A stretch of DNA of 49,401 bases. It comes from an uncultured Synergistales bacterium. GTDB lineage: Bacteria > Synergistota > Synergistia > Synergistales > Aminobacteriaceae. The notes beneath the pieces were generated by a model. It searched no databases and had not been told where the DNA came from. It saw nothing but the letters and a program-made list of their open reading frames with translations. The stretch is taken from positions 1 through 49,401 of the forward strand of contig CAJOEW010000005.1 in the NCBI GenBank assembly GCA_905233525.1, read 5' to 3'. A program made the translations under genes and the position numbers. The first letter of the stretch is position 1; each line of letters opens with the position of its first letter. Below, one piece after another: positions 47,670-49,401 of the stretch.

Positions 47670-48443
47670 ATGAACGAATATCACGGACCGTTACGCGAGC
47701 GTGCAATTATTGATGAGCGCGATCTTGACAGGCTTGAGGAAGATTTAGGCTATAAATTCAATGATCGTTTAACGTTAGAAGAAGCATTAACGCATTCGTC
47801 ATATTCTCACGAGCAGGGATTATATTACGATAATGAGCGGCTTGAATTTTTAGGCGATGCTATTTTAGATTTTGTTACGGCGCGTGCTTTATACAGAATG
47901 TATCCTGATGCAGGCGAGGGCGAATTAACAAATATGCGTTCTGAACTTGTGAGAGCTGAAAGTTTATACAGGAAAGCCGAAATTTTGCGAGTGCCTTATT
48001 TATTATTGCACGGGCGTTCAATGAGATCCGAGAATCTTCCGCGCTCAATATGTTCTGACGCAGTGGAGGCCATTATCGGAGCTATTTGCATTGACGGCGG
48101 AGTTGCAGCTGCTGAAAAAGTTATCAAGAAATTATTTTTAAGCAGTGTTGACGAGCAGGAAGCAGAATTAGATCCTAAATCACGTCTGCAAATCTGGTTA
48201 CAAAAGCGCGGATTGCCTTTACCTGTATATGAGCTTATCAGAGTCACAGGGCCGTCGCATAAACCTTTATTTGAAGTTCGTTTACGCATGAACGGTTTTG
48301 ATCACACGTCGACGGACACAACAAGAAAAGGCGCTGAATCAAATGTTGCCGAAGCGATATTAAACGATTTAAAAGAGCAGGAGCTTAAAGAATTAAAAGC
48401 TGCCGAAAAAAATCAGGCTCAGCAAGATTATGACGGCGATTAA
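47670..48443 (+). CDS. rnc: Ribonuclease III
   Basis: LEEALTHSSYSHEQGLYYDNERLEFLGDAILDFV, CSDAVEAIIGAICIDGG, dsRBD DPKSRLQIWLQKRGLPLPVYE...KGAESNVAEAIL. Confidence 0.95.
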   Translation: MNEYHGPLRERAIIDERDLDRLEEDLGYKFNDRLTLEEALTHSSYSHEQGLYYDNERLEFLGDAILDFVTARALYRMYPDAGEGELTNMRSELVRAESLYRKAEILRVPYLLLHGRSMRSENLPRSICSDAVEAIIGAICIDGGVAAAEKVIKKLFLSSVDEQEAELDPKSRLQIWLQKRGLPLPVYELIRVTGPSHKPLFEVRLRMNGFDHTSTDTTRKGAESNVAEAILNDLKEQELKELKAAEKNQAQQDYDGD

Positions 48444-49272
48444 AAAATTTTTAGTCTGCTTAATATTTTTATTGCTTGCAAATTCAACAGCCATGAGTGC
48501 AGAAAAGCTGAAAATAGCCGTAACTCACCCATGGCTTGCTATTTTAGCGAGTTTTATTGGCGGCGCTGAAGTTGAAATAATTCAAATATTAACCTGGAAT
48601 CCTGACGGCGATTTAATCAGAACATCGAACGGAAAAATTTTAAAAGAGCTTCCAGACCGCACAAAGATAATCGCAATAGACGAGGCCGAAGCAAAATCAG
48701 CAGGAATAAATTTAAACAAGAACGAAAAAAATTTTGACATAAGATTATTATATAAACCTTTCCCGATCGGCATTAACAGGATCGCAGATCCTTCTGTAGT
48801 GCCTTTTGTCGCTCAAAGAGTTTTAACGGCTTTATCAGAATGGGACGCGGCAAATTATCCGTTTTATCAAAGAAGGCTAGCAGAATTTCAAGCTCGTTTA
48901 TCAAGTTCAATGTTAGCAGGCCAAGTTTTAAACGGCGCTTTAATTTATGATCTAAGTGTTTCATCAGGGATTTTATTACAAGCTGCCGGTTGTAAAATCT
49001 CACGTCCGTCAAGTGAAATGCTTACGCAGCTGCAAAATTACGGAGCGGGCGCATTAAAAAATTTTGCCAATGAGAAACATTCACAAGGCTATATTATATT
49101 TATGGACGCATGGACGCATAAAAATATAAAGCGTCATCTCGAAGGACGTTCAGACGTATATTTATGGGCATTGCCTTCGATTGAAATGGATTATCCGTCA
49201 TTTTTGCACGAGCAATATATTTCATTATGGCAGAAAATAACAGCCAAGCCTTTACCAGGAATACGCAGATAA
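48430..49272 (+). CDS. Exported ZnuA/TroA-like metal-binding SBP family protein (tentative)
   Basis: Signal peptide; KLKIAVTHPWLAILASFIGGAEVEIIQILTWNPDGDLIRTSNGKILKELPDRTKIIAID. Confidence 0.5.
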   Translation: MTAIKKFLVCLIFLLLANSTAMSAEKLKIAVTHPWLAILASFIGGAEVEIIQILTWNPDGDLIRTSNGKILKELPDRTKIIAIDEAEAKSAGINLNKNEKNFDIRLLYKPFPIGINRIADPSVVPFVAQRVLTALSEWDAANYPFYQRRLAEFQARLSSSMLAGQVLNGALIYDLSVSSGILLQAAGCKISRPSSEMLTQLQNYGAGALKNFANEKHSQGYIIFMDAWTHKNIKRHLEGRSDVYLWALPSIEMDYPSFLHEQYISLWQKITAKPLPGIRR

Positions 49273-49290: not shown

Positions 49291-49296
49291 TATAAT
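49291..49296 (+). promoter_or_regulatory. Putative extended -10 (TGATATAAT) upstream of the terminal ORF
   Basis: TTTGATATAATTTGCACG. Confidence 0.45.
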
Positions 49297-49332
49297 TTGC
49301 ACGTTAAATCATATAAACGGAGGTTGATTTTT

Positions 49333-49401
49333 TTGGAATTTGCGTATAATAAAATTGGATCAGAGATCAGAGATCAGAGATCAGAGATCAGAGATCAGAG
49401 A
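49333..49401 (+). CDS. 5' end of an unidentified CDS containing a 7-bp tandem repeat (truncated by window end)
   Basis: SD ACGGAGGT followed by TTG 49333: MEFAYNKIGSEIRDQRSEIRDQR..., open to the end. Confidence 0.5.
   Translation, partial: MEFAYNKIGSEIRDQRSEIRDQR
49358..49401. repeat. 7-bp tandem repeat (GATCAGA)x6 plus GA, reaching the window end
   Basis: Six exact GATCAGA copies at 49358-49399 plus GA. Confidence 0.98.

Follow-up and report, generated by a model that had tools for sequence, protein, structure and literature searches.

In E. coli K1, the neuO gene of the CUS-3 prophage encodes a capsule-modifying enzyme and carries AAGACTC heptamers in its 5′ coding region, with one third of the copy numbers being ON (PMC13001214). 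A different arrangement is found in the pil1 and pil3 loci of Streptococcus gallolyticus, in which GCAGA repeats reside within a leader peptide ORF, and the frame decides the expression of the next gene (PMC3894217). Haemophilus influenzae possesses a multi-locus simple sequence repeat (SSR) phasome of surface-structure genes, built mainly of tetranucleotides in 5′ coding regions, although heptamers exist as well (PMC2651432). Multi-locus phase variation is known mainly from pathogens according to a review, perhaps through database bias, and phase variation in Synergistota was not the subject of any paper in the literature searched.

The window analyzed here is a whole stretch of 49,401 nucleotides from an uncultured Synergistales bacterium. 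With a probability of about 0.86, the array at its end belongs to a multi-locus translational phase-variation repertoire (phasome) of surface-glycan enzymes. The anatomy of the switch is directly observed, and from it we infer switching, protein expression, and an effect of coupling. In the proposed mechanism, ribosomes would initiate at a codon supported by a Shine–Dalgarno (SD) sequence, read 5–18 leader codons, and then enter a perfect, stop-free array with a unit length not divisible by three; replication slippage would add or remove whole units, and thereby shift the exit frame. Two layouts are distinguished. When the array is fused into the N-terminus of a glycan-enzyme ORF (layout I), the exit frame would either match that ORF or reach a stop a few codons on. 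When the array lies within a short leader ORF ahead of a separate gene (layout II), the ON state would be the frame running to a stop that overlaps or abuts the next start codon, helping translation by coupling. Across the population, cells would differ in which surface-glycan enzymes are ON or OFF, in many combinations.

The GATCAGA array at the end of the window is its top-scoring tandem array in TRF and matches at 100% (Table 1), bearing out the original prediction of six perfect copies placed eight codons into an SD-equipped TTG ORF. The frame opened by GGAGGT and the TTG at 49333 reads MEFAYNKIGSEIRDQR..., three units translate to DQRSEIR, and no stop occurs in any forward frame. The original prediction is correct in every detail, the cyclic heptapeptide included. 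The leader has a paralogue at C9:24220-24295 with 90% identity, and a perfect TATAAT lies upstream of the SD in 38 of 80 cassettes, compared with 7.6% in shuffles. The gene upstream of the array, which has no Pfam or NCBIfam match, is conserved throughout the genus (43/43 genomes).

Table 1. Coordinates of the features at the end of the window.
Feature	Position	Strand	Basis or remark
Upstream gene, 280 aa, next to rnc	48430..49272	+	Not part of the switch
TATAAT	49291..49296	+	Sequence; probable −10 of P1, the upstream (expression) promoter
Shine–Dalgarno GGAGGT	49319..49324	+	Sequence; conserved among paralogues
TTGATT-N15-TATAAT, weak version of the TTGACA-N17/18-TATAAT element	49324..49350	+	Spacing of 15 suboptimal
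TTG start of the leader with its first eight codons (MEFAYNKI, then the first base of the following codon)	49333..49357	+	Paralogous leader on C9
GATCAGA array, 6.29 copies, ending at the contig end	49358..49401	+	TRF, genome scan

The contig that carries the window (C5) is exactly 49,401 bases long and shares its last base with the window, and the array is thus cut by the contig end. The idea that the assembly breaks at the repeat fits the other contigs, as C5, C6, C28, and C46 all end in or near arrays. The suggested extension of the contig led no further, as none of the genome's contigs begins with a matching array; the left end of C45, which holds an open GT2 frame, was considered as the continuation of the window and was rejected, as there is no link between the two.

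The genome, which comprises 66 contigs and 1.64 Mb, was scanned in stretches for exact arrays above stated cut-offs. The census contains 23 heptamer rows (C24 counted twice), five octamer rows, four pentamer rows (one of them AT-rich and outside the pattern), and one decamer row; a period-11 array on C3 and a short pentamer array on C4 were added later, bringing the total to approximately 33. The phase-variation reading in the original prediction is therefore well supported and was too modest, given the approximately 33 similar arrays in the genome and the arrays found at orthologous starts. Not a single array of period 6 or 9 exceeds the census cut-offs in the whole genome (an 18-bp TTCTTG period-6 run on C22, without a cassette, lies below them), and three replicates of an order-3 Markov control, run for the whole genome, were free of arrays with periods of 6 or longer. 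Among the approximately 41 distinct GC-containing units, none contains a stop when read on the gene strand, and 18 contain one on the opposite strand. The perfection of the arrays, their unit lengths that are not multiples of three, and their position near the 5′ end of an ORF are those of a translational SSR contingency locus. A long AGAACGC array (C24:17195-17310) bears a single internal deletion of part of a unit, which may be a scar of slippage. Poly-G/C tracts of 10–11 were also seen in or beside glycan-like genes (C10:35419, C2:22097, C32:15280, C9:35846, and C22:88236), several of the five sharing a TACGTA-like flank; these tracts probably represent another class of slippage site.

GATCAGA is also found inside contigs C9 (three copies) and C22 (seven copies), where the array leads into a GT2 and a GT1 frame, respectively, according to Pfam; both glycosyltransferase frames are intact, in line with the expectation that a coding sequence follows the repeat. 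Further copies of the window-type leader precede GAAAGCA (C6) and AGAACGC (C10 and C24). The glycan-type Pfam families among the siblings are GT1, GT2, GT8, DUF4422, MBOAT, polysaccharide pyruvyl transferase, and bacterial sugar transferase, and the further families are DUF6625, UbiA, FrhB, methyltransferases, FkbH, MaoC, DUF2284, and radical SAM; a few sibling genes have no Pfam match. Judged by these assignments, the sibling arrays lie mostly at the N-terminus of surface-glycan genes and, by analogy, the gene behind the window array, beyond the contig end, is likely a glycan enzyme.

At the sibling loci, the array is open in all frames and the correct frame is needed for the product. In layout I, none of 43 rows contains an in-frame start with SD support in the 15 aa that follow the array; since no usable start lies behind the array, the leader start is required, and the copy number sets the predicted ON or OFF state. 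The predicted states, which depend on the choice of start codon and on copy numbers taken from the assembly consensus, are 14 ON and 22 OFF, with eight layout-I rows lacking a start that meets the SD rule; over the ON/OFF calls in general, 21 rows lacked such a start. The ratio of predicted states, 14:22, is near the one third expected of a free-running switch.

In layout II, at 29 of 30 loci one of the exit frames reaches a stop that falls between −12 and +13 nt relative to the start of the following gene, and the remaining two frames mostly stop 19–101 nt before that start. A comparable stop is found at 95 of 233 ordinary genes of the genome (41%), giving P ~1e-10, a value that is overstated because the layout-II loci are partly paralogous. 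The genes of layout II carry their own SD. Sequestration of the ribosome-binding site was not supported by folding (unpaired 0.33, versus 0.30 with shuffled upstream sequence), and a simple perfect-stem scan revealed no terminator-like hairpin at the 30 loci. From the position of the stops, we infer that layout II works by translational coupling; with neither a hidden ribosome-binding site by folding nor a terminator, termination–reinitiation would be the likelier mode, and the OFF state may be leaky or partial.

Differences of whole units in copy number were found between paralogues, and they support replication slippage as the probable source of variation. Four ATCGCAC cassettes share 39–43 of 45 upstream bases, and the cassettes on C9 and C58, which are identical at 41 of 45 upstream and 107 of 120 downstream positions, contain 5.71 and 3.71 units; the two are exactly two units apart, the former predicted to be OFF and the latter ON. 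The octamer cassettes, with 60–69 of 70 upstream bases identical, range from 3.75 to 10.75 units. A leader cassette of the form MGTS.AEN.. occurs on C3, C10, C16, C2, C28, C43, and C50, where an almost identical sequence is followed by arrays of period 8, 10, or 11; in these cassettes, the unit has been replaced and the leader retained.

Protein searches with GT8 and MBOAT across 43 genomes of the genus revealed arrays at gene starts in approximately 30 loci of relatives, with units such as CGCCCAA, CGACCAA, CACGAGC, and pentamers, mostly behind a TTGACA motif again; contigs of these relatives also end at arrays. The expectation that relatives carry the repeat at orthologous starts thus holds for the arrays, but not for the GATCAGA unit itself, whose array is absent from the 42 other species of the genus examined. 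Orthologous starts keep the array as the unit turns over. Most members of the genus contain the SD-TTGACA-TANAAT pattern, with as many as 13 instances in a genome, and it is rare elsewhere among 20 genera of the family, where the motif loci inspected lack an array and include at least two tRNA promoters. One C-terminus in the genome passes the Synergist_CTERM cut-off, which makes Synergistota the probable phylum. Outside the phylum, GATCAGA arrays were seen in 107 stretches, including Acidobacteria, Melainabacteria, and Deltaproteobacteria; homology with these was rejected, as the cassette is missing in the 12 examined, with at least four mismatches, and the recurrence of GATCAGA across phyla is an unexplained convergence.

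A near-consensus TTGACA-N17/18-TANAAT (TATAAT) element lies between the SD and the array at most heptamer and pentamer loci, with spacers unrelated in sequence, and the arrays begin at or close to its −10. The element occurs with at most one mismatch at 41 of 59 arrays (taken from a motif-independent set pre-filtered to at most three mismatches, a filter that at least 18 further arrays of the set fail), compared with 11 of 20,000 random positions and two of 617 gene starts. The arrays thus sit in leader ORFs and also directly behind a promoter-like element, and they invite comparison with hmw of H. influenzae: RNA could start inside the array from the embedded promoter, with the unit number altering transcriptional output. 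Such tuning is quite improbable, since RNA from the embedded promoter would lack an SD and a start, the genes of layout I have no usable start behind the array, and the octamer cassettes are without the element; the stop-free units, the periods that are not multiples of three, and the coupling geometry would also be left unaccounted for. It is conceivable, though unlikely, that the element belongs to a genus-wide design in which the embedded promoter opens the DNA at the array and raises slippage, with the frame being read by fusion or by stop-on-start coupling.

The heptamer arrays yield the same cyclic peptide from all three frames, and longer NeuO repeats have been reported to increase activity (PMC13001214), which would suit a NeuO-like modulation in which the main role of the repeat number is to determine how long an N-terminal heptad domain is, and so to tune enzyme activity. 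This explanation is very improbable by itself, as the leader peptides of layout II are separate products, unrelated peptides result from periods 5, 8, 10, and 11, and the OFF frame is predicted for most arrays, but it could coexist with frame switching. That the arrays are neutral microsatellites or assembly artefacts which happen to lie near gene starts is already disfavoured and hardly credible: the presence of GATCAGA in many unrelated phyla and the breaking of contigs at arrays are compatible with it, but the position, strand, period, and gene class of the arrays are strongly non-random, different arrays occupy orthologous starts in other genomes, and the foreign arrays examined lack the cassette.

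If true, translational phase variation at approximately 33 loci in 1.64 Mb would constitute an unusually rich glycan phasome, and the coupled-leader readout would by itself add a new mode to SSR phase variation. The loci would also offer a natural series in which the sequence and period of the unit vary freely and the position and frame logic stay constant, and the arrays would explain why contigs repeatedly break and some genes look like pseudogenes in such metagenome assemblies. Among known systems, neuO is nearest to layout I by virtue of its heptanucleotide array in the 5′ coding region; however, the set is not of the NeuO type, since the unit is GATCAGA rather than the AAGACTC of that prophage O-acetyltransferase gene and the siblings precede glycosyltransferases, MBOAT, and others. 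In addition, neuO is a single phage-borne locus, whereas the set described here is chromosome-wide, shares cassettes among its loci, covers several periods, and includes a coupled-leader layout. The pil1 locus, with repeats in a short leader ORF, is nearest to layout II, but the ribosome on the pil1/pil3 leader opens a transcription terminator, whereas the leader stop here falls on the next start codon. H. influenzae is nearest in its multi-locus character, although the heptamers of hmw1A and hmw2A reside in promoters and those described here in ORFs. None of neuO, pil1, and H. influenzae unites all the features of the Synergistales set.
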